Source: Aurantibacillus circumpalustris
GTDB lineage: Bacteria; Bacteroidota; Bacteroidia; B-17B0; Aurantibacillaceae
NCBI RefSeq assembly: GCF_029625215.1
Contig: NZ_CP121197.1
Coordinates: 4,464,001 to 4,528,000, forward strand
DNA: 64,000 bases
Direction of reading: 5' to 3'
Of this stretch, positions 8,072 through 32,557 are shown in pieces. The stretch's first letter is position 1; the number at the start of each line of letters is the position of its first letter. The notes beneath the pieces were generated by a model. That model had not been told where the DNA came from. It worked only from the letters and a program-made list of their open reading frames with translations, and did no database searches. The position numbers were made by a program, and so were the translations under genes.

Positions 8072-8167
8072 ATGTACACATGTTTAAGTAAATCAAAATA
8101 TAATTTTAGGTGAGCCTAAATATTTATTTAACCAAGGTAGATTAACCACGAAAAGATTCTGCTTTTT

Positions 8168-8364
8168 TTAACCACAAAGGGCACGAAGTGTTGCACAAAG
8201 GGCACAAAGGGTGAGAGTTTTTCTTCGTGTTCTTCGTGTCTACTTAGGGTTCTTCGTAGTTTCTGTTCTATTTAACCACAAAGACAAAGTGCTACACAAA
8301 GGGCACAAAGGGTGAGAGTTTTTCTTTGTATTCTTCGTGTCTTCTTTGTGTTCTTTGTGGTTTA
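8168..8364. repeat. Dispersed CACAAAG/CTTTGTG intergenic repeat, two copies
   Basis: This gene-free interval (8072-8373) is filled by two tandem copies of a degenerate repeat. Each starts with TTTAACCACAAAG (near 8168 and 8271), continues with CACAAAGGGCACAAAGGGTG, and ends in repeated TTCTTCGTGT / TTCTTTGTG units closing with CTTTGTGGTTTA. The outer ends are therefore inverted (ACCACAAAG against CTTTGTGGT). Related copies lie at 31841-32028, 32400-32546 and 48198-48415. No coding potential or promoter was recognised in it. Confidence 0.75.
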
Positions 8365-8373
8365 AATTGAGTA

Positions 8374-9741
8374 CTATTTATAAAACTCAACTACTGTTTG
8401 ATTATCAGATGTAATCGTGAATTTTTTCTCAACCGTATAAATACTTCCTTTTAAAGCCTTTGCACGCCAAGTTGCTACATACTTTCCAGGTTGTAAATAA
8501 TAAGTCTGAATCGTTTGTGTGGATAAATTACATACCCACTCCAGTCTTCCGTCACGGTTCAATAAAATACTTCCATCGCCTGCTTCAAGGCACTTCACCT
8601 GCACCACACCGGCATTGGGGATATCAATTGTTTTTAGTTTTGATTGTTCTATCGTAATCTTATTGATAAAAATTCGTGGCAGGGTTAAAATCTCAACATC
8701 ATAATTTCCAACAATGTATTTTTCATTGCTGTTCAAAGGCTGAACGTTTAGTGTGTTCATCGCATTTGTCTTACGAACAACACACTTTACTCTTTCATTG
8801 TAATTGTAAACACCTTGATTTCGGTTAATGGCCAAAAAACCTTGCGGTGCATCTATGGGAATAATGTTATGCTTACCTGGAGATAATTTAATCTCCTTAC
8901 TTTCAGTTGGCGGAATAGTATGTGCAATTACCTTGTAGGTTGGATAATCGTCCACGAACAAGGTGTCAGGATTTCCCTGGTAATTCATTGTGTGAATATA
9001 ATTGTACTTGTATTGATTTCTTTCAACATCATAAAACGTCATGTTCACATTGGTTTCCTTTGGCTGACCTCTGGTATCAAAGAGATTAACCTGTGTGGTA
9101 GTTCTGTTAAGTTTTTGTTGTTGAATGATTGTAGAGATCGTTGAAAAAGTCTCTTCACTATCATAATCATAAAATGTTCCCACACATTCAAAGGTTTTAA
9201 TTTGTTCCGGACTCAATCCTATACCAATAATAAACGGTTTAAATACAATTCCTTTTGCCATTAATTTTTGTCTTGCCGCGCAGGGATCACCGCCGCATTC
9301 TTCAATGCCATCCGTAATAATAATTACAATATTGGTTGTTTTGTTGTCTTTAAAATCATTCGCAGCTTCGGTTAAGGAATGTTCAATAGGTGTTATGCCA
9401 GTAGGCTTAGCTTCACTTACTTTTTGTTTGATGTGAGAAAGATTGTTTGGACCAAAAGGAACGACCAGTTTACTGTCCTTGCAATCCCCTGGCGGATATT
9501 TTACAGTGTGACCATACATTCGCAGCGCAAACTGCATGGATTTATCTTTTCCTAAACTATCTACAAACTTGTAAAAAAGATTTTTAGCACCGTCCATGCG
9601 AGTACTATTCTCATGTTTGGAGCTCATACTTTTGCTAGCGTCAAACACAAATAAAATTCGTACTGGTTTTTGGACGGTTTTTTTTTGTGAGATTCCTAAA
9701 GAACTAAGAAAAATAAATATAGAGAGTAATAAAAAACGCAT
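8374..9741 (-). CDS. Secreted von Willebrand factor A domain protein
   Basis: A 455-residue protein with a signal peptide (1-19, ending LGISQ) and a VWA domain at about 28-215. The metal-ion-dependent adhesion site is intact: D34-A-S36-K-S38, a Thr in the TGITPIEHSL segment, and the later Asp in ITDGIEECGGD. The remaining 230 residues are probably beta-rich and repeat a motif about ideal PEGA-like or carboxypeptidase-regulatory folds (for example PGKHNIIPID and PGKYVATWRA). It should bind protein ligands at the cell surface or periplasm. The gene stands between a repeat-filled spacer and the T9SS-type surface protein gene, which it follows on the same strand with an 81-bp gap. Its specific partner is unknown. 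Confidence 0.85.
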   Translation of the reverse strand: MRFLLLSIFIFLSSLGISQKKTVQKPVRILFVFDASKSMSSKHENSTRMDGAKNLFYKFVDSLGKDKSMQFALRMYGHTVKYPPGDCKDSKLVVPFGPNNLSHIKQKVSEAKPTGITPIEHSLTEAANDFKDNKTTNIVIIITDGIEECGGDPCAARQKLMAKGIVFKPFIIGIGLSPEQIKTFECVGTFYDYDSEETFSTISTIIQQQKLNRTTTQVNLFDTRGQPKETNVNMTFYDVERNQYKYNYIHTMNYQGNPDTLFVDDYPTYKVIAHTIPPTESKEIKLSPGKHNIIPIDAPQGFLAINRNQGVYNYNERVKCVVRKTNAMNTLNVQPLNSNEKYIVGNYDVEILTLPRIFINKITIEQSKLKTIDIPNAGVVQVKCLEAGDGSILLNRDGRLEWVCNLSTQTIQTYYLQPGKYVATWRAKALKGSIYTVEKKFTITSDNQTVVEFYK

Positions 9742-19896: not shown

Positions 19897-20454
19897 TTAT
19901 ATCTTAAGTAAACCTCTAAATCCTCTCGCTGCATAATACGATTCTGCTCCGTTATGATACAAGAAGACCGTGTTGTAACGACGATCACAAAATATTGCAC
20001 CACCGAGTTCTCTGATATCTGAAGGTGTTTTTACCCAGCTCGATGTTTTCATGTCGAAATTTCCTAGCTTCTGTAATTCACGATATTGCTCTTCTGTTAT
20101 AAGTTCAATCCCCATCTCAGCCGCCACATCTAAAGCACTACTTTTAGGTTTATGCTCCTTTCTTGATTCTAAAGCCTGACGGTCATAACAAAGACTTCTT
20201 CGTCCTTTTGGACTTTCTTCTGAACAATCACAAAAAATGTATTCACCCGTTTTTTTATCCTGCCCAATAACATCTGGTTCGCCGCCGCTGATTTCCATTT
20301 CCTCTAACGACCACAGTTTTTCTGACATTTTTTTTAGTCTTTCCACTAATCTACTCCATTCAAGTCCCTTATGGCGTTTTGTATTTTTCTCAAAACGTGT
20401 TTTCAAAATTTTGATTAGTTCTTTTTCTTGATTCGCAGACAATTTCTTTTTCAT
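19897..20454 (-). CDS. DUF4256 domain-containing protein
   Basis: The 185-residue protein matches the DUF4256 family over its whole length: conserved stretches include ISGGEPDVIGQD, FCDCSEESPKGRRSLCYDR, SALDVAAEMGIELITEEQYR and GGAIFCDRRYNTVFLYHNGA. It is cytosolic with no signal or membrane segment. Function is not known. It ends a run of five minus-strand genes led by an ArsR regulator; this set (ArsR, SRPBCC, DoxX, YdeI, DUF4256) often travels together in Bacteroidota and Bacilli. Confidence 0.88.
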   Translation of the reverse strand: MKKKLSANQEKELIKILKTRFEKNTKRHKGLEWSRLVERLKKMSEKLWSLEEMEISGGEPDVIGQDKKTGEYIFCDCSEESPKGRRSLCYDRQALESRKEHKPKSSALDVAAEMGIELITEEQYRELQKLGNFDMKTSSWVKTPSDIRELGGAIFCDRRYNTVFLYHNGAESYYAARGFRGLLKI

Positions 20455-20501
20455 GTTATTTTAATTTTTATCCCAAATGAATTATGGGTTTTAATAATTT
20501 A

Positions 20502-21089
20502 CTAATCATCTAATCCTTTACCATTGAGAATTTGTGTTGCATATTTTTCAACCCTTGCTTCACGCGTTTTAGCTTGTTTTGCTTGGGAGAAATAAAGCAA
20601 ATAGCCTCTTTGCCGCCCAGGTGTTAATGCTTTAAACGCTTTTTCCAGAGCCGGAAGTTCATCCAATTTGTTTTGGAACTCTTTAGGCATATTGAATTCT
20701 GTCGTTTTTTTTAAAGAAACCTTTACACCTGATTTTTCCACTTCAATGGCTTCTTTAATATAAGCTTTCACGACACTTTTTTTCTTTACAATTTCTTGAA
20801 GACTTGTAAACCTTAATTGGCGAGCTACCTGAACATTCTTAGTTTGTCGAATAAGAATTTCTTTTGGATCCTGTAACAAAACTCCTTTAAAAAATAAAAG
20901 AGCACAGTACTCTTTAAACACATGAATTAAAACAATGTTGTTTTTGTTATTAGTATAACAGGGACAACCCCATTTTAATTCTTCAGCAAGTCCACACGAA
21001 ACCGTAATCGCTCGGAGTGCCTCAATTTCATTCTGCCACTTTGCGTTTTTAGTAAAATACCAATCAACTTTAGGATTCATGTGTGTCAA
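20502..21089 (-). CDS. YdeI/OmpD-associated family protein (DUF1801 plus YdeI domain)
   Basis: The 195-residue protein has an N-terminal DUF1801-like region (WQNEIEALRAITVSCGLAEELKWGCPCYT) and a C-terminal YdeI region ending in LTPGRQRGYLLYFSQAKQAKTREARVEKY, the usual signature. YdeI proteins are linked to stress resistance in E. coli and B. subtilis, but their biochemical role is uncertain. The gene belongs to the ArsR-led operon, 29 bp after the DoxX gene. Confidence 0.87.
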   Translation of the reverse strand: MTHMNPKVDWYFTKNAKWQNEIEALRAITVSCGLAEELKWGCPCYTNNKNNIVLIHVFKEYCALLFFKGVLLQDPKEILIRQTKNVQVARQLRFTSLQEIVKKKSVVKAYIKEAIEVEKSGVKVSLKKTTEFNMPKEFQNKLDELPALEKAFKALTPGRQRGYLLYFSQAKQAKTREARVEKYATQILNGKGLDD

Positions 21090-21118
21090 TTATTTTATAA
21101 TTAAAATTAATAATTTTA

Positions 21119-21499
21119 CTAATTCGCGAAATTGATTTTCCTATCCGAAGGTCTAAGATACCAAGATACTAAAGTTAACACTAACAATAATGTAGGTCCG
21201 AAAAATTCAATAGCACCATCACCGACAACAAAATGAGAAACGATGGCTCCTGTCATTGTAAAGAAGAATCCGGCGTAGGCCCACTCTTTTACTAAAGGAA
21301 ATTTAGGCATAAGTACTACAATGACTCCCAAGATTTTCCAGACACCCAGAAGTGTTAGAAAATAAAGAGGATAACCTAAACGCTTCATCATTTCAACTTC
21401 TTCTCCCATTTGAATTAATTGTACAATTCCAGTTGAAGTCATTCCTAATGATAACCAGATAGTAGCGATCCAATAGATAATTTTGTTTCTTTTAGTCAT
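21119..21499 (-). CDS. DoxX family membrane protein
   Basis: The 126-residue protein has four predicted membrane helices (about 8-28, 43-63, 72-92, 97-117) with the family's YFLTLLGVWKILGVIVVLMP and EWAYAGFFFTMTGAIVSHF segments. DoxX-like proteins sit in the inner membrane, and the family has been tied to quinone/thiol redox or stress roles, none proven for this branch. It lies 6 bp after the SRPBCC gene in the ArsR-led operon. Confidence 0.87.
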   Translation of the reverse strand: MTKRNKIIYWIATIWLSLGMTSTGIVQLIQMGEEVEMMKRLGYPLYFLTLLGVWKILGVIVVLMPKFPLVKEWAYAGFFFTMTGAIVSHFVVGDGAIEFFGPTLLLVLTLVSWYLRPSDRKINFAN

Positions 21500-21505
21500 G
21501 GTATT

Positions 21506-21970
21506 TTATTTTAATTTGTTTCCTATTTCTTGTATGCGATTATGTGCCTTATTAATTCCTTGCGCAAAGGGAAGTTGCAATATTTGGTCTCTGATAGCAA
21601 CGGACCTATAAACAATGTGCATGGTTAGTATACTTACACCCGATGTGAGTCTTTCGAATTCTAAAAATTCAAGTTGAACGGGGAAAGGTGTGTTTTCCAT
21701 TTCAAATGTTCGCGTAATTTTTTTGTTTGGAACAAATTCATGAATGGTTCCATTGAACAGATGTTTATTTCCTCTTGGATCGCTTGTTTCAAATTGGTAA
21801 CTGCCGTGTCTTTTGCTTTCTAGTTTTAATACTTTTGTTCCCATCCATTGCTCAACGATTTCAGGCTCTATATAAGCTCTAAAAAGTAATTCTAGCGGCA
21901 AATCAAATTCCCGAGTAATAAAAATTTCCTGTTTACCTTCTTCGGCGTCAATTTTTGTTTTTCTCTCCAT
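21506..21970 (-). CDS. SRPBCC (AHSA1-like) domain protein
   Basis: The 154-residue protein has one START-like SRPBCC fold. The N-terminal ITREFDLPLELLFRAYIEPE and middle YQFETSDPRGNKHLFNGTIH stretches, and the C-terminal helix at about 130-152, are typical of the AHSA1 group. It probably binds a hydrophobic ligand or acts as a co-chaperone-like partner; the ligand is unknown. The start lies 1 bp from the ArsR stop, so it is translated with the regulator, a pairing common in many phyla. Confidence 0.9.
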   Translation of the reverse strand: MERKTKIDAEEGKQEIFITREFDLPLELLFRAYIEPEIVEQWMGTKVLKLESKRHGSYQFETSDPRGNKHLFNGTIHEFVPNKKITRTFEMENTPFPVQLEFLEFERLTSGVSILTMHIVYRSVAIRDQILQLPFAQGINKAHNRIQEIGNKLK

Positions 21971-21971
21971 G

Positions 21972-22292
21972 TTATTTATTTTTATACTTTTTCATAACAC
22001 TTTCCAGTTTATTAAATCGCTCATCCCACATGCTGCGGAATGGTTCGATAAAATCCGCAACCTCTTTCATTTTTTTAGGATTAAATTGATAATAAACTTC
22101 CCTACCCTCTTGCCTTTGATTTAACAACTCACATTCTGCAAGAATTTGCAAATGCTTAGAAACGGTTGGCCTTGCAGTGTCAAAATTTGATGCAATAGCG
22201 CCTGCCGTCATTGATTGCGAAGTAAGCAGAAGGAGGATAGCCCTTCTTGTTGGATCAGCAATAGCCTGAAAAACATCCCGTCTTAAATTCAT
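21972..22292 (-). CDS. ArsR-family winged-helix regulator
   Basis: A 106-residue repressor with the ArsR fold: [15 protein letters not shown], the recognition helix region [23 protein letters not shown], and the wing [13 protein letters not shown]. It lacks the ELCVCD cysteine motif of metal-sensing ArsR, so it belongs to the non-metal group paired with SRPBCC proteins. Two 16-bp palindromes touch and precede its start codon, which points to autoregulation of the five-gene operon (21972 down to 19897). Confidence 0.93.
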
Positions 22293-22295
22293 TAT

Positions 22296-22337
22296 GTAGT
22301 TATTTGACTACAAATATATGTGTAGTTATTTAACTAC
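22296..22337 (-). promoter_or_regulatory. Tandem palindromic operator of the ArsR operon
   Basis: Two near-identical 16-bp palindromes, GTAGTTATTTGACTAC (22296-22311) and GTAGTTATTTAACTAC (22322-22337), sit 26 bp apart centre to centre, about 2.5 helical turns. The first begins 4 bp upstream of the regulator's ATG. They are the probable binding sites of the ArsR dimer. That binding is inference; the symmetry is read directly. Confidence 0.75.
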
Positions 22338-22411
22338 GCAAATTTTTTATTGCGATGAAATTTGGAAGTGTTTAAAAAACCGATTTTGCTCATTATATGA
22401 ATCTTAATTAT

Positions 22412-22774
22412 TTATTTAGCACAAACACACATAAATGTTTTTAGCTTTTTCGCTTCATTGCATGTAAGCTTTGTTTTGGTGATACAATCAAAAGTACTAT
22501 CAATTACAGTAATCATGTTCGATTGCCCTGAATACTTATTTCCGAACGCTGTTACAGAATCCTCTACGCTTTGGTCTACCAATAAGTTTCCTAAAGAACA
22601 AAAAACCTTTCGTTCAATTATACTATCATTTCCTACGTAAAACGAGGTAACAATTTTACAACCGGAACAACTTTTACAATTGCAAAAACACATACAGGAA
22701 TTCAACATAAACAAAACAAAGACCAAAATAGTTGCTGAAATAATTTTTAGCGAAAATTTTTCTTTAAATATCAT
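22412..22774 (-). CDS. Cysteine-rich putative lipoprotein (last array gene)
   Basis: The open frame extends upstream to 22984 through palindrome DNA, so the start is set at the ATG 22772-22774, giving 120 residues. It begins MIFKEKFSLKIISATILVFV, has one hydrophobic segment and a lipobox-like LNSC, then a cysteine cluster (CMCFCNCKSCSGC) and more Cys at the C-terminus (TCNEAKKLKTFMCVCAK). It is probably a lipidated envelope protein; the Cys cluster could bind metal or form disulphides. No family was recognised. It is the gene furthest from the recombinase, and no palindrome follows its stop before the arsR operator 75 bp away. Confidence 0.55.
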   Translation of the reverse strand: MIFKEKFSLKIISATILVFVLFMLNSCMCFCNCKSCSGCKIVTSFYVGNDSIIERKVFCSLGNLLVDQSVEDSVTAFGNKYSGQSNMITVIDSTFDCITKTKLTCNEAKKLKTFMCVCAK

Positions 22775-22837
22775 ATTTTTACTCTTGGATGTAACTAATA
22801 ATAATATTTGTTGTCCTGTCGTCTCACTTATGCTTGC

Positions 22838-23019
22838 TAACGGATTCGGGCTTGGCGCCGGCGAAAATAACGATTTCGCAGATGCTAAAAGTGTTCCGAT
22901 GTCCAGCGTGAAGTTAAAGTATTTTGAGCATTTGCAAAACAATAAAAAGTCCCGAAGGGGCCGCTGAAAAATTTGCAAATGCATGCACGAATGTCCGCTG
23001 GCGCCATTAGCCCGTGTTA
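22838..23019 (-). repeat. attC-like palindromic site a
   Basis: Ends are TAAC (22838-22841) and GTTA (23016-23019) on the plus strand. The arms pair: on the plus strand, the left arm continues GGATTCGGGCTTGGCGCC; the complement of the right arm reads ACGGGCTAATGGCGCC. At 182 bp it is the longest of the set and includes two copies of the central box type (GATGTCC and GAATGTCC) plus TATTTTGAGC, so it may be two sites fused or nested. A further CACAAAGTATTTGAGCG copy lies at 23036-23052. Confidence 0.6.
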
Positions 23020-23094
23020 GCTACTAGTGCGCCCACACAAAGTATTTGAGCGTTTCCGCTAGTCTGAAATACCATCGTCCTAAAATTAAACGTT

Positions 23095-23409
23095 TTAAGG
23101 TTGCAGTTGAAATAGGTTTATATAATGCCAATTAATATAGCCATATTTTATGCTGGCTAACCAAATACCAAGAGTCAAATTTGTTAAAAGAAGAAAAGTC
23201 AGGATGATTTTTTTAAACGTACTATAAAGATGATAATTTCTAATGAAAATTATTATTGCTAAGAATGTCACCAAAAAAGCGAATAGATTTATATAATGAC
23301 TGTAAACAGGTCCAAGTATAATTGCCGAAAAGAATGAAAAAAGCATTGTGCCAATTGAACCTGTCAATAACGGCGAGCAATAATTGTATTCTTTCAGTTC
23401 TTCAATCAT
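23095..23409 (-). CDS. Small membrane protein (array gene)
   Basis: The 104-residue protein has three predicted membrane helices (about 14-34, 40-57, 67-86) and no recognised family. It is flanked by a truncated palindromic site upstream (23501-23588) and site a downstream, so it fits as one cassette. Nothing in the sequence points to a function. Confidence 0.55.
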   Translation of the reverse strand: MIEELKEYNYCSPLLTGSIGTMLFSFFSAIILGPVYSHYINLFAFLVTFLAIIIFIRNYHLYSTFKKIILTFLLLTNLTLGIWLASIKYGYINWHYINLFQLQP

Positions 23410-23500
23410 TTATTTCAATTTGCTATTGTCTTCGTCCAGTTGCAATACTTCTGTTCTTGTTAGGCCGAAATGTTTGAACGTCCGCTGGGCGCATTGTAGC

Positions 23501-23588
23501 TAACGTATCGCGAACAGTTTTCCGTGCCCGCGTCTGTAATGTTATAAAAGTACAAATGTCCGCCGAGATTTTAAAATAGAAAATGCCG
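23501..23588 (-). repeat. attC-like site b, truncated by the IS
   Basis: It begins with TAACGTATCGCGAACAG (23501-23517) as one arm, followed by GCCCGCGTCTG and a central ACAAATGTCCGCCG box, then stops at the IS end (23589). The partner arm that should read CGCG-AACAG in inverse and end in GTTA is absent. A fragment of another site (GTCCGCTGGGCGC, 23480-23492) lies just to its left. Confidence 0.55.
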
Positions 23589-23609
23589 TGTAAGCTCCCC
23601 AAAATTGGA

Positions 23610-24428
23610 CTACTCAAAAGTAGAATTTTTAATTAAAAGTTCATTATTATATGTATGAGAATGTTGACTTGTTGGAAACTCTTTTCGAGTTTTCAATAAA
23701 TCAACATTCTTTAGTTTGAATAGAATTGGGGATAATCCTCCTAGGCTATCATGAGGTCGTTTGTTGTTGTAGTCATGAATAAAAATATCTGTCACCTCTC
23801 TAACTTCATTAAGATCTTCAAACAAATATGCATCTAGTACATGTCGTCGGTATGTTCCGTTAAAGCGTTCAATATATGCATTCTGAGTTGGTTTGCCTGG
23901 TTGTATATAATGAAAATCGATGTGATGCATCTCACTCCACTCTTTAGTTAATCCGGCAATAAACTCCGGACCATTATCCATTCTTATTGTGCAAGGCTTT
24001 GTTCTTTGGTTAATAAGTCTGTTTAATACCCAAACAACAGCATTGCTTTTTAATGAATGATCAATTTCAATATGTAAAACTTCACGATTGTAATCATCTA
24101 TCACATTAAAGGTTTTAAACTTTCTTCCATTTATAAGGGCATCATGCATAAAATCAATAGACCAGGTGTGATTGATGTATGCAGGAACTACAAGTGTTTC
24201 TTTAGTTCTAGCAGGCAAACGTCTCTTGCCTTTTCTTCTTAGGTTTAATTTCATCGCTTTATAAATTCTATGTACACGTTTATGATTCCAAATATTTCCT
24301 TCTAATCTAATTCGTCCGTATGCCTTCCAAAAACCCTCTCGTGGATGTTCATCGGCCTTTAAGCGTAATTCATCCATAACTTTTTTATCGTCTTTCTTGG
24401 TTTTATAATAGATGCTTGATTTTCCCAA
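23610..24428 (-). CDS. IS3-family transposase OrfB (DDE domain)
   Basis: From the first ATG 272 residues are read; the same frame continues upstream without a stop to the orfA end ([20 protein letters not shown]), so the full product is OrfAB made by frameshift. It has an HTH_21-like region ([20 protein letters not shown]) and an rve/DDE catalytic core: D in [10 protein letters not shown] in IRMDNGPEF and E in [14 protein letters not shown]. The C-terminal [15 protein letters not shown] is typical of IS407-type transposases. It cuts and joins IS ends. All catalytic residues are present, so the element may still be active. Confidence 0.93.
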
Positions 24429-24511
24429 GTTAAGGATCCTGCACGCCCTGCTGATGCGGTAATTACCACTGCTGCATATTTCAGTTGCTATTTGTTTTTT
24501 AACGCAAGGCT

Positions 24512-24778
24512 TTAGAGCTTTTTTTCAATGATCTCCTTTGCCAACTTTAAATCGAGCGCAAGTTCAGCATACATATGCTTTAAGCGCCTGTTTTCTTCTT
24601 CCAGGGATTTCATCTTTCTTAACTCATCAGAGCTCATGCCTCCATAACGCTGTCGCCATTTATAAAACGCAGCTTTGCTAACGCCATGTGTTCTTACAAT
24701 TTCTTCTAATGGTTTGCCGGTATCAAACTCTTTGAGGATAGCAGCAATTTGTTCGGGGGTGAATCGTTTTTTCTTCAT
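24512..24778 (-). CDS. IS3-family transposase OrfA (helix-turn-helix)
   Basis: The 88-residue protein has the HTH_8-type DNA-binding domain ([20 protein letters not shown] and [16 protein letters not shown]) and a leucine-zipper-like helix ([15 protein letters not shown]). Near its end the minus strand reads A7 followed by G (24518-24525), a slippery heptamer A-AAA-AAG for -1 frameshifting into orfB just before the orfA stop. The product binds the IS ends and regulates transposition. Confidence 0.93.
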
Positions 24779-24824
24779 TTTGCTTAGGTTAATTTATTAG
24801 TTTTTTTTCTACTAACAAATAGTC

Positions 24825-25124
24825 CTAATTTTGGGGGAGCTTACAATTACGCTTCTTAATTAAAATTGCTTTGCCCGACATTTGTCCGAAAAGATGTCCG
24901 CTGAGAAACATAATTAGAATGCCTATTAAAAGATTAAGTTTAAATTTTACTGTCGTGAACCAAAAGAAAGCGTCTATGAAACTTTCGTCAAGAGAATTAA
25001 AATATGTCATTATTATTTGAGCGATAAGTAGTCCGAAACCAACGGAAATTAATGCTTGTCTACTACCTATTTGTTTCGCTATTTTTTCAGTCATGAATGG
25101 GTCTGTTTGTCTGTCTGTCAGCAT
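24825..25124 (-). pseudogene. Membrane protein gene truncated by the IS (array gene)
   Basis: Ninety-three codons of original sequence (ending ...LIKKRN at 24846) read into the IS end and stop after six more residues, CKLPQN, coded by the terminal repeat. Two membrane helices are visible (about 24-42 and 62-80). Start choice: ATG at 25124 (MLTDRQTDPF) lies 6 bp from the palindromic site; ATG at 25094 (MTEKIAKQ) is an alternative. The original C-terminus and the following site are lost. No family recognised. Confidence 0.6.
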
Positions 25125-25130
25125 TGGCTA

Positions 25131-25223
25131 TAACGTTTTGCGGCCTTGCGTCCGTTTTTTTGCTAAGTCCAAATATAGCATTTGAGCGTTACTGCGCAAA
25201 AAAATGGCGCGAGACCGCTGTTA
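25131..25223 (-). repeat. attC-like palindromic site c
   Basis: Ends TAAC (25131-25134) and GTTA (25220-25223). One arm reads GTTTTGCGGCCTTGCGTCCG, the complement of the other AGCGGTCTCGCGCCA; both continue into T6-7 GC. The loop holds AAGTCCAAATATAGC and ATTTGAGCGTTA. Beyond GTTA the plus strand reads GGGTTGGCCG then CACACAGTATTT, which is shared with site f. The arm on the side of the downstream cassette start is about 3 nt longer near the end. Confidence 0.7.
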
Positions 25224-25279
25224 TGGGTTGGCCGTTGCACACAGTATTTAGTCCGCTTGAGTGTCTGCATAAATTTGTA

Positions 25280-26299
25280 TTAAGTATTTTCAATTTTTGA
25301 ACCTTTAGTCCGATTGCATCTCCAACAAAGAGTTTGCAAATTGTCTTCAGATGTAATACCGCCTCTTGAAAGCGGAATAATATGGTCAATCTCTAGCAAT
25401 AAATTCTTTTCGTCTCTAATTGATAAGCTACATTTTTTACAACAAAAGTTATCTCGTGATTTTATTTTTTCTCTTAAGGCGGATGTCATTAATGCCCTTT
25501 GTCCATGAACGCTCTTTTTAAATTTAATTAAATCATTTAAATAGAAAATCAAGTTCTCTAAGTTGTCGATGTTTAATTTTATGTCACATTTTGTCGAGCT
25601 GTTGCCACCCGCAGACACATACTGAAAAGTATAGACAGGAAAATACAAATCGCTAAAATCGTAACTTTCAAAGCCAAGCTTCCGAATTACCATGTTCTTG
25701 TTGAAGTACATAATTAATTTCGGAATAGAATCGCTGATGTTGTTTAAAATAGAATCCCTTTCATTCCTTAATAGTTCTTTTCCTTGTTCTGCCGCAGCAA
25801 AGTCATTAAGTACAGTTTCAAAACTCATCAATGTACCCTCATTTGTCTCGATATTGAAATATTTACAGAGGTATTTGATTGGTTGATTACTTGCGCTTTT
25901 ACATACGGCAGCAGAACAGTTATAAATTTGATGATTCTTAATGTCATTTTGCCACTCCTTGCGTTTAAATTTAAAATTACTGTTGTCATTCAGTTCCCCC
26001 TGTCCATAGTCGTATGTACTTATGGCAACGAAAGAACTTTTTAATTCATTAATATGAGTGTTCAGGTCGTTACAATTCTTAATGTATTTCTGGATGTCAC
26101 TTTTGAGATTTAAAAATTTGCTACTGTTGAAATAGAGGTGTCTATATATGATGTATGATAATATCACTACGCCAGCACTTAATAATGTGATGCCTAATGG
26201 AAGCAATAGAATACTTACCACTGATATAACGAATTTTATTACGAGTCCGATTATTGCAACAATAATTACTAGAGTTATAAGAGCGGAATTACCTTTCAT
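25280..26299 (-). CDS. Membrane-anchored HNH endonuclease (array gene)
   Basis: The 339-residue protein has two N-terminal membrane helices (about 7-30 and 32-52), a long middle region with predicted helices (about 60-260) and a C-terminal HNH nuclease domain (about 280-335). The domain shows C-C-K-K-C, then LLLEIDHIIPLSRGG, then EDNLQTLCWRCNRTKGSK, so both zinc-knuckle CxxC pairs and the DH of the active site are in place. It could cut DNA near the inner membrane. Membrane-bound HNH proteins occur among phage-defence candidates; that role is inference from domain layout and its place in an accessory array. Flanked by sites d and c. Confidence 0.8.
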   Translation of the reverse strand: MKGNSALITLVIIVAIIGLVIKFVISVVSILLLPLGITLLSAGVVILSYIIYRHLYFNSSKFLNLKSDIQKYIKNCNDLNTHINELKSSFVAISTYDYGQGELNDNSNFKFKRKEWQNDIKNHQIYNCSAAVCKSASNQPIKYLCKYFNIETNEGTLMSFETVLNDFAAAEQGKELLRNERDSILNNISDSIPKLIMYFNKNMVIRKLGFESYDFSDLYFPVYTFQYVSAGGNSSTKCDIKLNIDNLENLIFYLNDLIKFKKSVHGQRALMTSALREKIKSRDNFCCKKCSLSIRDEKNLLLEIDHIIPLSRGGITSEDNLQTLCWRCNRTKGSKIENT

Positions 26300-26369
26300 T
26301 GGGTCTTTTGTATTGATGTCTTAAGTTTACGTCCGACTGTTTTTTGAGGGTCGTCCAACGGCTTACCCA

Positions 26370-26453
26370 TAACGTAATGCGACTAAAAGTAGTTTGCTAA
26401 TTCAAATTAACACATTTATGCGTGTCCGCGCAAATTACTTTTAGTTGCGGTTA
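26370..26453 (-). repeat. attC-like palindromic site d
   Basis: Ends TAAC (26370-26373) and GTTA (26450-26453). Arms: GTAATGCGACTAAAAGTAG on one side against the complement CGCAACTAAAAGTAA on the other, 12 or more paired positions. The first arm has 4 extra nt next to the TAAC end. The loop carries the GCGTGTCCGCG box. It is the shortest full site (84 bp). Confidence 0.7.
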
Positions 26454-26463
26454 TAGGCAGGCT

Positions 26464-26913
26464 TTATATTAGTCTCACAGTTGTCTGAATAATTATTACT
26501 AAAGTCACTGTCGCGATAATTATTGTTGAATTTTTAAAATTTGTATCATTTGTCAACGGAGCAAGTCTGTACTTTTCAAATAAGGTCGGCAAGTGAAAAA
26601 CAAGAGCAAGAATCATAAAATAAATATTGTATTGTCTTGCAAAATAATAGAAGTAGTCCGTAGAATTAATTTGGAAAGGTCCGCGTTTAAATAAAAGTAA
26701 ATTGTAGACGATTATAAATACAAAAAGTCCTATAAGCTCTTGAACTTTCTTATGTCTTAGAGTATAACCTAGAAAGAGTCCCAATAAACAGGTGTCGTAA
26801 CCCAATTTAATATTGTCATGATGCTCAGGAATTGCAAGTCCGATAAAGTACAAGAGTCCCCATGTCAAAGCTGAAGTTAATGCAATAATATTTCCGGTAT
26901 TATAATTATTCAT
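26464..26913 (-). CDS. Multi-pass membrane protein (array gene)
   Basis: The 149-residue protein starts MNNYNTGNIIALTSALTWGL (ATG at 26911-26913; a TTG three codons earlier is possible). Four or five hydrophobic segments are visible (about 8-26, 40-53, 62-77, 94-110, 130-148). There is no signal peptide and no recognised family. It is bounded by site e 18 bp upstream and site d 10 bp downstream, the tightest cassette fit in the array. Confidence 0.6.
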   Translation of the reverse strand: MNNYNTGNIIALTSALTWGLLYFIGLAIPEHHDNIKLGYDTCLLGLFLGYTLRHKKVQELIGLFVFIIVYNLLLFKRGPFQINSTDYFYYFARQYNIYFMILALVFHLPTLFEKYRLAPLTNDTNFKNSTIIIATVTLVIIIQTTVRLI

Positions 26914-26931
26914 GTCTGTCAAGCTTGCCTA

Positions 26932-27041
26932 TAACGTTTTCCAAGCAAGAGCCGTGCCTGTCGTCCGTAAAGTTAAATGTACGAATGTCCAGCGAAATGC
27001 CAAAATGCAAAATGAACAGGCATGGATTTTGCTTGGTGTTA
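26932..27041 (-). repeat. attC-like palindromic site e
   Basis: Ends TAAC (26932-26935) and GTTA (27038-27041). One arm reads GTTTTCCAAGCAAGAGCC then GTGCCTGTCG; the complement of the other reads ACCAAGCAAAATCC then ATGCCTGTT, about 20 paired positions, with about 4 extra nt in the first arm beside the end. The loop holds ACGAATGTCCAGCG. Confidence 0.72.
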
Positions 27042-27061
27042 CCACGCGTTTTTTATTGTCC

Positions 27062-27952
27062 TTATGTCGCAAATAAACCTGTCGAGAGAGCTAATTTTAC
27101 TCCAGCAATTACGATCTTATGTCCGAAGTCAAGTACGGTCGAAGCATTGGCACAGAGTTCAAGCACTTTACCAATTGCTCCTAAGTCTAAAGTGTCTTCC
27201 TTTTCAATGGCGGTCAAAGCCAATTCAACAATATCTTTGTCTTGTTGCTTTGAGTCTTTGAGAATTTGTTTAATTTCTTTTAGGACTTCAACAACATTGT
27301 CTTTGTTAAATGTATTGTTAATCGTACTTATATTGTGCGAGCCGAAATTTGCAATACCCTGATTGCCCATTTTTACGGTGATGTTCTGATAGTTTGTAGA
27401 ATTTTTGTTGTCCATATTGTTTTTAGCAAGAATGTGAGCATACCCTTCTGGAGTCATTTTCGCATTAACAAATGGAACATTTCCTTTACTAATAGCAGAC
27501 TTTAAAGAGGTAGGGTTTGCGAGCCTATTATAAAGGGCATTGTTGTCTTGTATATGCTTGGCGTCAACTAAAAGTACTAAAATATTTCGAATTTCTGTCC
27601 CTGTAATGTTTGGTGAATGATCTAAAACCAAATCTGTAATATCAACGAAAGCGCCATTGTAATATGTCGGAAATAAATGCTCAAGAATTTCTTCAGCAAG
27701 CGCTTTTCTCGGAGGAAATATTTTGTCATAGGAATAGCTGGTGAGAGCAATACCTTTTTGTGTCCGCATAACAGTGTATTTTGAATGAGCAGGCGCTACA
27801 AGTTTATTTTCAAGCATTTTTTCAAGTAAGTCGTCAATGCGAGTTATGGAGTCTTCGCCTAATTGTTCGAACATAGTGTCGATATAATATTGCGAGTCGG
27901 TGTCCATTTGCGAAAGTACTCCAAGTATCAATTCTTTGTCTGTCTTAGTCAT
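27062..27952 (-). CDS. Hypothetical protein, winged-helix-like N-terminus (array gene)
   Basis: The 296-residue cytosolic protein has no recognised family. The first 75 residues alternate helices and a short beta pair (KLVAPAHSKYTVMRTQKG) like a winged helix. A low-complexity beta stretch in the middle (NITVKMGNQGIANFGS, then NISTINNTFNKDN) resembles the linker repeats found before effector domains in several bacterial conflict proteins. It is followed by a charged helix (VVEVLKEIKQILKDS) and a hydrophobic C-terminal helix (about 265-296). A two-part sensor-effector layout is possible, but this is inference from composition only. Bounded by sites f and e. Confidence 0.6.
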   Translation of the reverse strand: MTKTDKELILGVLSQMDTDSQYYIDTMFEQLGEDSITRIDDLLEKMLENKLVAPAHSKYTVMRTQKGIALTSYSYDKIFPPRKALAEEILEHLFPTYYNGAFVDITDLVLDHSPNITGTEIRNILVLLVDAKHIQDNNALYNRLANPTSLKSAISKGNVPFVNAKMTPEGYAHILAKNNMDNKNSTNYQNITVKMGNQGIANFGSHNISTINNTFNKDNVVEVLKEIKQILKDSKQQDKDIVELALTAIEKEDTLDLGAIGKVLELCANASTVLDFGHKIVIAGVKLALSTGLFAT

Positions 27953-27987
27953 TTTGTTGTCGTCAGAGTCGGTCCAAAAATGCGTGG

Positions 27988-28077
27988 TAACGTTTGGCGA
28001 ATTTGCGCCGTTTTTTGCTTGTCCAAGTTATGCATTTGAGCGCTAACCCGCAAAAAATGGACGCGAATTTGCTGTTA
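27988..28077 (-). repeat. attC-like palindromic site f
   Basis: Ends TAAC (27988-27991) and GTTA (28074-28077). One arm reads GTTTGGCGAATTTGCGCC then GTTTTTTGC; the complement of the other reads AGCAAATTCGCGTCCA then TTTTTTGC. The loop carries TTGTCCAAGTTATGC and ATTTGAGCGCTAAC, very close to the loop of site c. Outside GTTA lies GCACACAGTTT, also shared with c. Confidence 0.72.
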
Positions 28078-28099
28078 TAAGCTGCCAGCCGCACACAGT

Positions 28100-28723
28100 T
28101 TATTGTTGCTTTTTGTCTATACTTTTTTTGTCGCGGTCATACATAAAAAAAGTTTTTTCAAACTCAGTCCCAAAACTGTCAAACGGAAATTTTTTGATAG
28201 TTTCATTTCTGTATGTCATTATACATATTTTATTTTTCTTGTCACAGTCTATACAAATTGGGTATTTCTCTTTTGCAGCAAGAGAGGTTGATTTAATAAT
28301 TGTGCTGTCCTTAATATAAAGTATGTCGGATTCATTAAATCCTCCGTCCGCAAACCATGAGGTCACACGAGAAGTGTCCTGAGAGTAATAGTAAGAATCT
28401 TCACGTTGATCATATATTAAATGAACATTCATAACTGTGTGCCAAGTACCAATCTTTCTGTCGTCAGCGTATTGTCCATAGAAGTAGTCCTGAACATAAT
28501 CACCTTTTTCAAGTTCGTCTGGCTTGTCGACCGGATTGTATTGAACTTTATAGTAAATCCACCAGCCTTGCTTTTTCGCAAATTTGTCCTTGCAATTTAT
28601 GCTGTCCGGAAAGTTGTCTGGGAGTGAATGAAAAAGTTTACGGTCGAATTTTTCGCACGTCTGAGAAAATGTCTGGCCGTAAATTAAAAGGAAAAATATT
28701 ATTGTCTTGCTGTATTTTGTCAT
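28100..28723 (-). CDS. Secreted MORN-like hypothetical protein (first array gene)
   Basis: The 207-residue protein has a signal peptide (1-20, ending QTFSQ) and short motifs such as GDYVQDYFYGQYADDRKIGTW that resemble the MORN-like repeats of YwqK-type proteins. It has a CIDCDKKNKIC segment near 160. The likely location is periplasm or outer envelope; function unknown. It is the first cassette-like gene after the recombinase, starting 26 bp from the TAAC at 28750 and ending 22 bp before site f. Confidence 0.6.
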   Translation of the reverse strand: MTKYSKTIIFFLLIYGQTFSQTCEKFDRKLFHSLPDNFPDSINCKDKFAKKQGWWIYYKVQYNPVDKPDELEKGDYVQDYFYGQYADDRKIGTWHTVMNVHLIYDQREDSYYYSQDTSRVTSWFADGGFNESDILYIKDSTIIKSTSLAAKEKYPICIDCDKKNKICIMTYRNETIKKFPFDSFGTEFEKTFFMYDRDKKSIDKKQQ

Positions 28724-28749
28724 GGGTCATTTGTCCGGCTGGTTGCTTA

Positions 28750-28829
28750 TAACTACCTTATACCCGCTACAAACATTCGGTTATCTTGCATATGGTACGC
28801 AGATAACCGCTACTCGGTAGCGGTTTTTT
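28750..28829. other. Candidate primary recombination site (attI-like) between recombinase and first cassette
   Basis: This interval differs from the other sites. It has TAAC at 28750-28753, then a perfect 9-bp inverted repeat CGGTTATCT (28778-28786) and AGATAACCG (28801-28809) around a 14-bp loop, then an overlapping hairpin ACCGCTAC-TCG-GTAGCGGT (28806-28824) followed by T5 on the plus strand. A CCCGCTAC unit also occurs at 28763-28770. The last hairpin looks like a plus-strand terminator, yet the genes on both sides run on the minus strand, so a recombination or regulatory role is more likely; that is inference. Confidence 0.45.
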
Positions 28830-28845
28830 AAATGTATAACTATTT

Positions 28846-29997
28846 CTATAAATAATCAAATGGCGAAGTTATCGTTTGTAAACTTTTAGTACTCACATGG
28901 GTATATATCTCGGTGGTTCTACTACTGCTATGCCCCAGTAATTCTTGTATATATCTTAAATCAGTGCCGTTTTCTAATAAATGAGTAGCATAGCTGTGTC
29001 TCAGCCAATGTAAGGTTACTGGCTTTTTAATGCTCGTTTTTAATAAATTAGTTTTTAAAACCTGCTGTAAACTCCTCTCGTCATACATACCACCGGGTTT
29101 TTGTCCCTCAAATAAATAAAGCCTAGGTTCGTGTATCTTATTATACTCTTTCAAAAGCACTAAAATCTTTGAACTTAATGGAGTAATTCTGTCTTTCCTT
29201 CCTTTCGACTGCTTTATAATTAATAAATTTCGATTACAATCTAAATGTTCTGGCTTTAATCTCAACAACTCTCCGCATCGTAAACCACAAGCGTAAATTA
29301 AACTCAACATGGCTTTATGCTTCAGATTACTAGTCTTTTCAAGCAATTCTTTTACTTCCTCCTTACTTAATATGTTCGGTAATAATTTAGGCCGTTTTGG
29401 CCTGTCTATTAATTCCGGGTCTAGTTTTTTGTTTTCAACTTTTCTGAAAAATAATTTTATAGCGCTCACAACCTGATTCTGGTAAGATGCCGAAAATTTG
29501 TTAGCCAAAATATAGTGGTTATTAAAATCAATTAGGTCATGGTTATTCAGATTCTCTGTGTTTTTTGTACTGTGATATCTTAAAAAAGTAGTTAAAGCAT
29601 CCGTATAGGTGTGTACCGTATTTTTACTATAGCGTTTCGACAACATCCATTTTTTAAACTCAGTCACTTTGGCTTTTTGCCTTTCGTTTAATAAACCTAA
29701 TCTGGAAGAAGGATGTTCTGTTATCCTCGCAGAACCAAGCACCAAAGCCGTGCTATTATTTTTAACAGTCGAATAATCCAACCAAGCTTTCCCCTTAAAC
29801 GCGTTGAATAATTCACTTAAAATCCCAGGTCTATTCTCGAAATACCAGGCCTTGTGTGTGTGACTCCATTTATAACCAATAAGCGATTTAACACATTGCT
29901 GCAATTCAGCATTATAAGTAAAGTGTAAAGAAATAATTTCCTTTTCACGGTGAATTAATTTGCTCAGCTTTATGGTTTGGGTAGTTTCCACAAACAA
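28846..29997 (-). CDS. Tyrosine recombinase with HARP-like N-terminal domain
   Basis: The 383-residue protein has three parts. Residues 1-75 resemble the HARP-like segment seen in some Bacteroidota integrases (HFTYNAELQQCVKSLIGYKW and KAWYFENRP). Residues about 105-185 form a core-binding SAM-like domain. Residues about 205-383 are the catalytic domain with all six residues: R240 (CGLRCGE), K265, H330 and R333 (HWLRHSYATH), H356 (LLGHSS), Y365 (IYTHVS). The gap between K265 and H330 is 65 residues, as in XerC/D, so the extra helix of integron IntI is absent, although the IYTHVSTKSLQTITSPFD tail is IntI-like. It probably acts on the palindromic sites downstream. It shares their strand rather than facing away as in most integrons. 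Confidence 0.9.
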   Translation of the reverse strand: MFVETTQTIKLSKLIHREKEIISLHFTYNAELQQCVKSLIGYKWSHTHKAWYFENRPGILSELFNAFKGKAWLDYSTVKNNSTALVLGSARITEHPSSRLGLLNERQKAKVTEFKKWMLSKRYSKNTVHTYTDALTTFLRYHSTKNTENLNNHDLIDFNNHYILANKFSASYQNQVVSAIKLFFRKVENKKLDPELIDRPKRPKLLPNILSKEEVKELLEKTSNLKHKAMLSLIYACGLRCGELLRLKPEHLDCNRNLLIIKQSKGRKDRITPLSSKILVLLKEYNKIHEPRLYLFEGQKPGGMYDERSLQQVLKTNLLKTSIKKPVTLHWLRHSYATHLLENGTDLRYIQELLGHSSSRTTEIYTHVSTKSLQTITSPFDYL

Positions 29998-30090
29998 AAT
30001 TACCTCTAAAAAAACACATAACTTGCTATACTTTGTAGCAAGTTAAATCGAAATCATGTTCTCACAAAAGTTCTGCGAAAAACTATCAAC

Positions 30091-30120
30091 AAAAAAACCC
30101 TTCTAGTTCTAGAAAGGGTT
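30091..30120 (-). terminator. Rho-independent terminator of icd
   Basis: AACCCTTCTAG pairs with CTAGAAAGGGTT (30096-30120, with one mismatch or bulge) and is followed on the minus strand by seven T residues (A-tract 30091-30097 on the plus strand). It lies 25 bp past the icd stop. Confidence 0.8.
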
Positions 30121-30144
30121 CTTAAATTATATCCTGAATAAAAA

Positions 30145-31374
30145 TTACTCGCCCAAAGCTTTTTTCAAATTAGTATCTAAAGCTTCTAAAAATTCTTCTG
30201 TATATAAAAAGTGTTCGCCATGTTTTACATTGTTTCCAAATGCACACACTGCTAGATCTTTTGTCATTTTTCCACTTTCAACAGTTTCAACACAAACTTT
30301 TTCTAATGTTTGACAGAAGTTAACCAAATCTTTATTTCCATCTAATTTACCACGGAACTCTAAACCTCTAGTCCAAGCAAAAATAGATGCAATTGGATTA
30401 GTAGAAGTTGGCTTACCAGCTTGGTGATCACGATAGTGACGTGTTACCGTGCCATGCGCCGCTTCTGCTTCCATTACTTTTCCATCCGGAGTAATTAATA
30501 CAGAAGTCATTAATCCTAATGAACCAAATCCTTGTGCTACTGTATCCGATTGTACGTCGCCATCGTAATTTTTACAAGCCCACACAAAATTTCCATTCCA
30601 CTTTAATGCCGAAGCAACCATGTCGTCGATCAAACGGTGTTCGTATACAATTCCAGCAGCTTCGAATTTTGATTTGTAATCTGCTTGATAAATTTCTTCG
30701 AAAATATCTTTAAAACGACCATCGTATTTTTTTAAAATGGTGTTCTTAGTTGACAAATACAAAGGCCACTTTTTTGTTAAGGCCACATTAAAACACGAGT
30801 GCGCAAATCCGCGAATCGATGATTCTAAATTGTACATGCCCATTGCAACACCTGCTCCTGGAAATTTAAAAATTTCATGCTCAATCACCGTTCCATCTTC
30901 ACCTTCAAATTTCATCGTTAATTTTCCTTTTCCTGGAACGACGAAATCTGTAGCACGGTATTGATCTCCAAACGCGTGACGACCAACAATAATTGGCGCC
31001 GTCCAGTTTGTTACCAAACGTGGGACGTTTTTACAAACGATTGGCTCACGAAAAACAGTACCATCTAAAATATTACGGATGGTTCCGTTTGGTGATTTCC
31101 ACATTTGTTTTAAATTAAATTCTTTTACACGCGCCTCGTCAGGAGTAATCGTAGCACACTTAATACCCACTTGATATTTTTTAATAGCCTCTGCAGCGTC
31201 AATCGTTACTTGATCTCCGGTAGCATCACGGTGTTCAACACCCAGGTCATAATATTTAATATCCAAATCTAAATATGGAACAATCAATTTGTCTTTTATG
31301 AATTTCCAAATAATACGGGTCATTTCATCCCCATCAAGTTCTACAACGGGGTTAGCTACTTTAATTTTGCTCAT
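30145..31374 (-). CDS. icd: NADP-dependent isocitrate dehydrogenase (eukaryote-like homodimeric type)
   Basis: The 409-residue TCA-cycle enzyme oxidises isocitrate to 2-oxoglutarate with NADP+. It begins [21 protein letters not shown] and shows the substrate-binding [19 protein letters not shown] and the metal/NADP region [20 protein letters not shown] and [11 protein letters not shown]. This is the subfamily II enzyme also found in eukaryotes, not the E. coli type. Its own terminator follows. Immediately outside the cassette array, it marks return to core genome. Confidence 0.97.
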
Positions 31375-31489
31375 TTTTAAGGCGTTTTAAGATTTTTTTA
31401 AATAGAGCACAAATTTAGGAAAGCTAGTTGAACAGGCAAGTTTTTGGCAGGGTTTTTATAAGATTTAACGAAGACCTGATGACACAGAA

Positions 31490-31840
31490 TTCTTGAATTT
31501 AAGCAAGAATGGCTTCACATACTACATTTTTTGGGCGCTTGCCCATGAAGCTGAAAACGCCTTTAGTTAAATCTCGTCTGCGTTTCGCTTCGGTCTTAAA
31601 AGCCAGCGCACGATCTGGCCCAAAAGTTCACTGAACTTTTGTCCTGCTTTATCCCATTTGCCTTAGCTAAAAGCGGCTATGTTTGTGCGGGGTCTTTGCC
31701 CTTCGGGACACGTACGCACCAGCTGGCTCAAAAGTCTACAAGCCTTTTGCCCTGCCAAACAGCCGCTTTAAGCCAAGTCTTCGCGGGGATGCCGCTGTGG
31801 TCCCTGGCGCGAATTCTGCTATTTTTATTCCTGTTGTAAA
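31490..31840. other. GC-richer non-coding segment with internal short repeats
   Basis: No credible gene lies in 31375-32090. This part is clearly more GC-rich than its surroundings, with small palindromes such as GGGCGCTTGCCC (31531-31542) and AAAAGTTCACTGAACTTTT (31621-31639), and recurring units (CAAAAGTTCACTGAAC, CAAAAGTCTACAAGCC; TTTTGTCCTGC, TTTTGCCCTGCC). It ends in GATGCCGCTGTGGTCCCTGG, a form close to intergenic repeats common in Bacteroidota genomes. Open frames here have no family features and are not called. Confidence 0.5.
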
Positions 31841-32028
31841 ACCTCAGCGATATTCTGCGCCGAACTCCACAGACTCTGTGGTTAAACAGACTACAACAAA
31901 CCGCCAACTCTTTGTGTCCTTTGTGCAACACTTCGTGCCCTTTGTGGTTAAAAGTACAGAAACCACGAAGAACACAAAGAAGACACAAAGAAACACTGAG
32001 GAAATCAAAACCCTTTGTGATTAAAAGA
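31841..32028. repeat. Dispersed CTTTGTG/CACAAAG intergenic repeat
   Basis: After a weaker unit with ACTCTGTGGTTAAA (31872-31886), the sequence reads CTCTTTGTGTCCTTTGTGC, then CCTTTGTGGTTAAAA, then the inverse GAAACCACGAAGAACACAAAG and GAAGACACAAAGAAACACTG. The inverted arms meet at about 31950-31960. It is the same family as at 8168-8364. Confidence 0.75.
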
Positions 32029-32090
32029 ATATAAACACTTTCAAAGCGCCCCATATTTAACTACTTTAGCCAACACTTAAAAAAACAACC

Positions 32091-32312
32091 ATGTCAAAAA
32101 CTAAAATAACAGTAAATAACAACGGCTCTATCCGTTTAGAAGGAGATTTTGAAATTGTAGACAAAAGCGGCGCAGCATACGATTTAGCAGGGCGCGAAAT
32201 AGTTTCTTTATGCCGCTGCGGACTTTCAAAAAACAAACCATTTTGCGATGGTTCTCATAATGGACACTTTGAGCACGACGCGGTTGCATTTGCATTACCT
32301 CCAAAAAAATAA
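32091..32312 (+). CDS. CDGSH iron-sulfur domain protein
   Basis: The 73-residue protein carries the CDGSH signature CRCGLSKNKPFCDGSH with C41, C43, C52 and H56 as the ligands of a 2Fe-2S cluster. There is no membrane helix, unlike mitochondrial mitoNEET, so it is cytosolic. It probably works in redox or Fe-S transfer; the partner is unknown. The gene stands alone between two copies of the dispersed repeat. Confidence 0.92.
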   Translation: MSKTKITVNNNGSIRLEGDFEIVDKSGAAYDLAGREIVSLCRCGLSKNKPFCDGSHNGHFEHDAVAFALPPKK

Positions 32313-32399
32313 AATTTGACTTAGTTGTGTCTTTCTACATTTTAACGCTCTATGGATAAAAAAACAGAGCACACGAATAAACACTATGGAAAATTAATA

Positions 32400-32546
32400 A
32401 TCTTTGTGTCCTTTGTATAACACTTTGTACGCTTTGTGGTTATAAGAAGACAAATCACGAAGAACACAAAGTAGGCACTAAGAAATACAAAAAAACTCAA
32501 AATTCTTTGTGCCCTTTGTGTAACACTTTGTGCGCTCTGTGGTTAA
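32400..32546. repeat. Dispersed CTTTGTG/CACAAAG intergenic repeat
   Basis: It holds CTTTGTGTCCTTTGTATAAC, GCTTTGTGGTTATAAG, the inverse ATCACGAAGAACACAAAG, and a second CTTTGTGCCCTTTGTGTAAC closing with GCTCTGTGGTTAAAA at 32546. It occupies most of the spacer 32313-32557, where no other feature was seen. Confidence 0.75.
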
Positions 32547-32557
32547 AAAAGCGGGTT

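Follow-up and report, generated by a model that had tools for sequence, protein, structure and literature searches.

The window analysed here is a stretch of 64,000 nucleotides of the Aurantibacillus circumpalustris genome (contig NZ_CP121197.1, positions 4,464,001 to 4,528,000), and the element in question is a tyrosine recombinase gene on its minus strand together with the sequence that follows it. Behind the recombinase lie five open reading frames (ORFs), all on the minus strand and reaching down to position 24825, separated by four palindromic sites of ~95–120 nt. Read along the array strand, a site begins with xxxxxTAAC and a single unpaired base, continues with a hairpin whose two arms form ~20 pairs around a loop, and closes with five unpaired bases and GTTAxxxxx. 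Judging from the sequence, we consider the locus very likely to be an integron-type cassette array with the recombinase as its integrase, and the system would be a new variant of integron. The features are as follows, with site scores in bits taken from covariance model R1.

29758..29982, minus strand: HARP-like N-terminal domain of the recombinase (residues 6–80), from predicted secondary structure and profile matches
28846..29997, minus strand: tyrosine recombinase of 383 residues with a TTG start, the proposed array integrase, without the insertion specific to IntI
28829..28836, minus strand: promoter-like TAnnTTTA directly past the recombinase stop
28750..28809, minus strand: attI-like site, an inverted repeat at 28778–28809 followed by TAGCGGGTATAAGGTAG^TTA at 28750–28769
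between 28753 and 28752, minus strand: proposed crossover of the attI-like site
27991..28752, minus strand: cassette 1, ORF 28100–28723 with no Pfam match; opens TTATAAGC, closing box GCTTATAAC
27983..28082, minus strand: attC-like site 1, 43.3 bits
26935..27990, minus strand: cassette 2, ORF 27062–27952 with no Pfam match
26927..27046, minus strand: attC-like site 2, 46.2 bits, outside the training sites of the model
26373..26934, minus strand: cassette 3, ORF 26464–26922 with no Pfam match
26365..26458, minus strand: attC-like site 3, 65.7 bits
25134..26372, minus strand: cassette 4, ORF 25280–26299 with a C-terminal HNH endonuclease domain
25126..25228, minus strand: attC-like site 4, 51.9 bits
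24825..25133, minus strand: start of cassette 5, ORF 24825–25124
22831..23026, minus strand: weak attC-like site, possibly decayed, 24.4 bits, E 2.2e-4

If cassettes are circles joined by crossover at G^TTA, a cassette's opening bases must pair with those before its own far-end TAAC. The four cassettes of the window show this complementarity between start and end: TTATAAGC/GCTTATAAC, TTACCACG/CGTGGTAAC, TTATAGGC/GCCTATAAC and TTATGGGT/ACCCATAAC. Taking the arrays of relatives and the window together, the rule is kept at five or more of seven free positions in 33 of 43 neighbouring pairs, compared to 6 of 75 when the two flanks of one and the same site are set against each other and 3.3% of 5,506 non-adjacent pairs. 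Arrays in phage relatives obey it in 99 of 138 neighbouring pairs, compared to 4.9% of 35,858 pairs drawn from different loci. As in an integron, the array thus consists of cassettes that end in attC-type hairpins with a predicted G^TT crossover.

The stems of the sites show compensatory change, with both sides altered and pairing kept, at 16 of 21 consensus pairs. Covariation by itself fits any inverted repeat, and the strand bias is more telling. With a stem detector that scores both strands alike, G.T pairs that can form on one strand only number 126 on the bottom strand and 48 on the top, although these and the following strand counts are not independent, since the sites partly share ancestry. 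Site by site, the G.T balance favours the bottom strand in 47 cases and the top in 4, with 20 equal. The bottom strand is the more stable fold in 56 of 71 sites and in five of five folded sites from the window's genome. In the phage arrays the bottom strand has 345 such G.T pairs and the top 62, with 167 sites favouring the bottom and 4 the top. This would fit recombination of the bottom strand by the recombinase. That the palindromes are ordinary repeats such as terminators, REP-like elements or MITEs is hardly credible: they are intergenic hairpins, and some repeat families look alike, but neither the cassette-end rule nor the strand bias would be expected of such repeats, and no Rfam family matches anywhere within 20000–31500.

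The recombinase itself matches Phage_integrase (E 3.2e-37) and Phage_int_SAM_4 (E 1.6e-13) in Pfam and carries the full catalytic set of an IntI-type integrase (R, K, H, R, H, Y). R240, K265, H330, R333 and H356 are invariant across 70 aligned members of the family and Y365 is conserved in at least 90% of them. The initial annotation had named these six residues and had claimed a Xer-like distance between the lysine and the first histidine that leaves no space for the IntI helix, and both claims hold. K265 and H330 are 65 residues apart, compared to 106 for the same spacing in IntI1 and likewise in a second IntI, and the additional domain of IntI near patch III is not present. The spacing is 64–66 residues in Bacteroidota-type rows and 59–65 in 18 phage rows; in E. 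coli it is 68 in XerC and 72 in XerD. The integron integrase model TIGR02249 aligns to family members in two pieces, ~2–180 and 238–315 of its 315 positions, and the window protein scores 198.7 bits, below the cut-off of 265. No IntI above this cut-off was found in 60 genomes, the window's own included, in a search without a positive control, as its 14 control genomes likewise hold no match above the cut-off. The closest sequences in the PDB are those of XerA (4a8e, 5hxy), and the K–H spacing is Xer-like. Residues 1 to ~100 are extra relative to XerA and IntI4, and the matches start at residue 109–114. Alignment A1 holds 29 recombinases, with L021 (a stop) and L035 (no N-terminus) excluded, and alignment A4 holds the window protein and 69 of 80 named loci.

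In classical integrons the IntI insertion grips extrahelical bases of the folded attC site (compare structure 2a3v). Extrahelical bases are not a defining feature of the present class of sites. No bulged base occurs in 41 of 71 detector sites, and because the detector threshold disfavours bulges the count was repeated on sites found by model R1 with no stem threshold applied, giving 48 of 83. R1 was built from 43 sites (A3), omitting window site 2 and others longer than 150 nt, shorter than 90 nt or redundant by locus, and the bulge and spacer counts on model-found sites use 83 of its best 150 matches. All eight distinct class 1 attC sites that could be aligned, blaVEB apart, are bulged by 1–3 bases and always in the same arm, in a count made by hand on sites found at a lower stem threshold. 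The unpaired spacer beside the crossover box has lengths of 1 and 5 nt on the two sides in 65 of the 83 model-found sites, and these lengths differ by at least 3 nt in 79 of these 83 and in 157 of 193 phage sites. All four sites of the window have the 1/5 spacer; two are free of bulges and two have one bulge each. We read the joint absence of bulges and insertion as either a matched loss or a state that may have preceded their gain.

Relatives of the recombinase at E up to 1e-60 are present in 37 of the 60 genomes, the window's own among them, and a scan of named genomes yielded at least 80 loci, mostly in Bacteroidota and including species of Flavobacterium, Algoriphagus, Pedobacter and Polaribacter. 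Downstream of the recombinases of 80 relatives (311,332 bases) the stem detector found 82 sites, compared to 13 in 652,035 upstream bases and 6 in shuffled downstream sequence. In the 80 loci R1 gives 158 matches, on one strand throughout, and 3 of the best 150 are located upstream. The idea that such recombinases co-occur with palindromic sites is supported among the relatives, since 35 of the 41 loci with at least 2 kb of downstream sequence have an R1 site. Per genome, site searches that are lossy throughout return a median of 9 sites where the recombinase or its N-terminal domain was detected (43 genomes), compared to 2 where neither was (17 genomes; p 0.0008); the search of the window's own genome returns three of the four window sites and none at its paralogue locus. 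An integron has an attI beside its integrase gene, and a conserved attI-like motif appears to take this place, being found within 400 nt of the recombinase in 47 of 79 loci, compared to 13% in shuffles. The final 20 bases of the attI-like site in the window share one pattern with the paralogue locus, L011 and L035. TAnnTTTG, which we take to be the Bacteroidota –7 box, occurs within 45 nt past the match end in 30 of the 80 loci, where shuffles would give 1.95.

A quick maximum-likelihood tree was made from 89 of 144 prepared sequences. Its branches are long, IntI is represented by two rows, and neither XerA nor any other simple recombinase is included. The two IntI, IntI1 being one of them, join with 100% support next to a set of 83 rows without the insertion (support 83). 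The Xer-like proteins L004 and L005, the closest two in the host, stand with E. coli XerC and XerD apart from the family (99%), so that in this tree the recombinase does not group with the host XerC/D as a member of the XerC/XerD dimer-resolution system would. Only two IntI rows could be included because few distinct IntI were recovered: plasmids gave near-identical IntI1 only, and a viral search gave six loci. A sister relationship between the insertless group and IntI is a lead only. Compared with integrons of the IntI type, the present system shares an integrase gene, an attI-like site and mostly single-ORF cassettes ending in hairpin sites, as well as the predicted G^TT crossover and the bottom-strand bias. 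It differs in the missing insertion, the extra N-terminus, an integrase gene co-oriented with the array, and sites that have a 1/5-nt spacer and are often free of bulges. It differs from XerA and the simple Xer recombinases in being tied to cassette arrays, with the sampled E. coli and host Xer proteins outside the family.

The extra N-terminus was proposed in the initial annotation to be HARP-like and, as a junction-binding domain, to suit a recombinase acting on folded single strands. AlphaFold2, run with 70 sequences, predicts the topology strand-strand-helix-strand-strand-helix-strand (mean pLDDT 89.8, with block means of 83–97 across residues 1–80); a single-sequence prediction with a mean pLDDT of 37.8 was discarded. 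The window sequence alone does not match Pfam HARP. A profile of 50 N-termini, however, has as its sole match among PDB sequences 4o66, the HARP domain of SMARCAL1 (E 6.5e-4), and individual scans at a threshold of E up to 1 match Pfam HARP with 7 of the 50 (best E 7.7e-6) and DUF5710 with 20 (best E 2.1e-4). By profile we place the N-terminus near HARP and DUF5710 as a probable HARP-like domain, with the difference from SMARCAL1 that the domain is fused here to a recombinase and not to a helicase. Fold searches with the full model were dominated by the core, residues 104–371 alone being covered by one fifth or more of the rows; they say nothing about the N-terminus, so that the lack of a solved arm-binding domain among the rows listed for residues 1–80 carries no weight. 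Across the 60 genomes HARP (PF07443) has weak sub-cut-off matches in 34 and none above the cut-off, and the N-terminal profile has matches in 40, so that the N-terminus is no chance extension. Of the 50 matches of the domain in genomes, a count by hand places at least 46 next to a recombinase match or in frame with one. Locus L088 has, by eye, two HARP-like domains in tandem ahead of the recombinase core, upstream of 2770.

The domain is neither universal nor bound to one array orientation. Five members lack it (L035, L070, L084, L086 and L089), each of which keeps an attI-like site, and the starred branches of the tree demand four or more separate changes to explain them. Four of the five were searched with the site model, which found two sites in L084 and three in L089. 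Conversely, L222–L224, a second Bacteroidota subfamily, combine a HARP-like N-terminus with divergent arrays. These observations bear on the proposal that the domain takes the place of the IntI insertion and enables the recognition of hairpins. The profile match and the close association of the domain with recombinases speak for this proposal, but it is unlikely, as domain-less members keep attI-like sites, two of them with model-found hairpins downstream, and dense arrays occur in phage relatives seemingly without the domain. Of the role first suggested, the likeness to HARP by profile and the co-occurrence with sites find support, and the replacement of the insertion is unlikely; binding of single/double-strand junctions may be a function of the domain. 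A more serious possibility, to which we give somewhat less than an even chance, is that the domain binds double-stranded sites of the attI or arm type or sets the direction of the array, and that the core alone recognises hairpins. In keeping with this, closely inspected members with the domain are mostly co-oriented with their arrays and the phage group is divergent; we list with it that none of the 24 Pfam families matched by the N-termini is arm-binding by name. The divergent arrays of L222–L224 and the attI-like sites of the five domain-less members count against it. We propose that the HARP-like domain is an accessory module and not indispensable.

The phage relatives comprise 80 loci on IMG/VR contigs (L142–L221), de-duplicated to 74 ahead of counting, and many of them show dense arrays of the same site type beside an insertless recombinase. 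Their recombinase matches begin at residue 80 or later, and the 29 recombinases with a delimitable reading frame have 262–300 residues. Among 300 listed of 316 site matches, the plus strand carries 297; with six exceptions the matches lie upstream of the recombinase, and the phage arrays are therefore divergent. L142 has three sites downstream on the opposite strand and, by eye, an N-terminal stretch of the HARP-like kind. In L203 ~12 listed sites fall within 4.3 kb. In the Bacteroidota locus L222 a gene at 8030–8830 lies between the divergent array and its recombinase, and its product presumably resembles the Erm(F) methyltransferase. Hairpin cassette sites in phage genomes have been described before: passages of one report state that attC sites of virulent phages are recombined by IntI1, including one of two from a Polaribacter phage (PMC9892861). 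The clusters described in those passages are without an integrase, whereas the phage loci found here have an adjoining insertless recombinase.

Two links to resistance genes emerged. Truncated family members stand directly before blaVEB-3 in two records (L124, L127) and directly before tet(X3) in all three plasmid records opened (L121–L123). The blaVEB cassette opens GTTAGCGGTAATTTAACC both behind an attI-like sequence (L124, L127) and behind a class 1 junction (L125, L126), and its attC in class 1 integrons matches R1 with 46.4 bits (E 7.2e-11). The other cassette sites in L124–L127, L139 and L237–L240 gave no R1 match at E up to 5, and in this respect the class 1 cassette sites of L237–L240 and L139 differ from those of the present system. 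The blaVEB attC has bulged bases and a 2/4 spacer and is therefore intermediate. The tet(X3) evidence is weaker. Around the gene lie a box resembling a promoter, a palindrome and one half of what may be an attC-like site (L121–L123). This half site is the best nhmmer match of ten loci at E 0.25 and is not matched by R1, and the attI profile was not found at the tet(X3) junction. Since the box before the half site mismatches the cassette start, the link stays suggestive, as does the idea that the truncated neighbour is a remnant of such an integrase. Passages of an earlier report on tet(X) name such neighbouring genes xerD and leave them unexplained (PMC7473080); here we would read them as integrase remnants.

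Several observations weigh against the integron interpretation. No recombination has been observed, and the evidence as a whole is deduced from sequence. No model-found site is present in 6 of the 41 loci that extend 2 kb or more downstream, and the TAAC/GTTA pair is missing at its expected place in 67 of the best 150 R1 matches. The cassette-end rule falls short of five of seven positions in 10 of 43 neighbouring pairs, some of which have a missed site in between, and in 39 of 138 pairs in phage arrays. No cassette is common to different arrays at high identity, the comparison across arrays giving just three pairs of at least 250 nt, each with ~78% identity. The attI-like sequence before blaVEB scores 10.5, which is the best in each locus and yet falls short of the null maximum (14.2) and of the training set's 5th percentile (17.3). 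Finally, at least one site occurs in 12 of the 17 genomes that gave no match to either the recombinase or the N-terminal domain, so these are solo site clusters or another enzyme acts on them. Two genomes, G040 and G043, have 17 and 19 model-found sites and no close recombinase, and here too solo clusters or another enzyme may be involved. This last point and the action of IntI1 on phage attC sites (PMC9892861, in the passages mentioned) would fit arrays moved by some other recombinase, IntI in other cells or the host XerC/D, with the adjacent gene not the active enzyme. We consider this quite improbable: the sites cluster beside the recombinase gene in a single orientation and an attI-like site follows it, L004 and L005 side with E. 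coli XerC/D in the tree and not with the family, and the control-less search described above returned no IntI above the cut-off.

The anatomy of the locus, the cassette-end rule, covariation, strand bias, shared orientation, co-occurrence and the missing insertion, all of which can be seen in the sequence, together support the integron reading. In such a system cassettes would leave the array as circles and be taken up again either at the attI-like site or at a different hairpin, with G^TTA as the crossover point. Like the classical integrases, the enzyme would act on the bottom strand of the folded hairpin, and would do so without the IntI insertion. The unpaired spacer of 1 versus 5 nt by the crossover box would mark strand and direction, the HARP-like domain would serve as an accessory DNA-binding module, perhaps for the single/double-strand junction of the hairpin or for attI, and transcription of the first cassettes would start from the promoter-like box past the recombinase. 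Catalysis by the recombinase, the choice of strand, the role of the spacer, that of the domain and the activity of the promoter are all assignments that we infer.

Similar cassette arrays are known for spreading antibiotic resistance, and arrangements like that of the window recur in related bacteria. We see an even chance that these loci represent a widespread second class of integron in Bacteroidota and their phages, without insertion or extrahelical bases and with polarity read from the spacer, out of which resistance cassettes, blaVEB for one and perhaps tet(X), would have moved into other bacteria in class 1 integrons and on plasmids; its insertless enzymes would be sister to IntI and may retain a state that preceded the insertion. 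No earlier report of such a system was found in the literature searched, with preprints and most subscription papers outside its scope. The hold of the IntI insertion on extrahelical bases has been taken as what enabled the use of folded single strands. If our reading is right, hairpin recombination needs no IntI insertion, and comparison of the two classes makes the origin of integrons testable. Screens that require IntI would also miss most cassette arrays of Bacteroidota, a likely source of the blaVEB cassette among them; passages on IntegronFinder 2 report one complete integron in Bacteroidetes (PMC9024848).

Some further features of the window and its genome complete the description. A palindrome, TAACTTGCTA-CAAAGTA-TAGCAAGTTA, lies at 30019–30045, upstream of the recombinase gene, and is possibly an operator or a core site. 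The distal array is broken up by two transposase-like ORFs at 23610–24778 (IS3-like by eye). CTTTGTG-rich repeats of 59–111 nt occur in both orientations at 8163–8363 and 31895–32548. A second copy of the recombinase in the same genome is 55% identical and has the same layout; this paralogue locus (L007:6765-9102, positions 1336764–1339101 of the genome) lies directly downstream of recA, with an attI-like site of its own and a single clear attC-like site.
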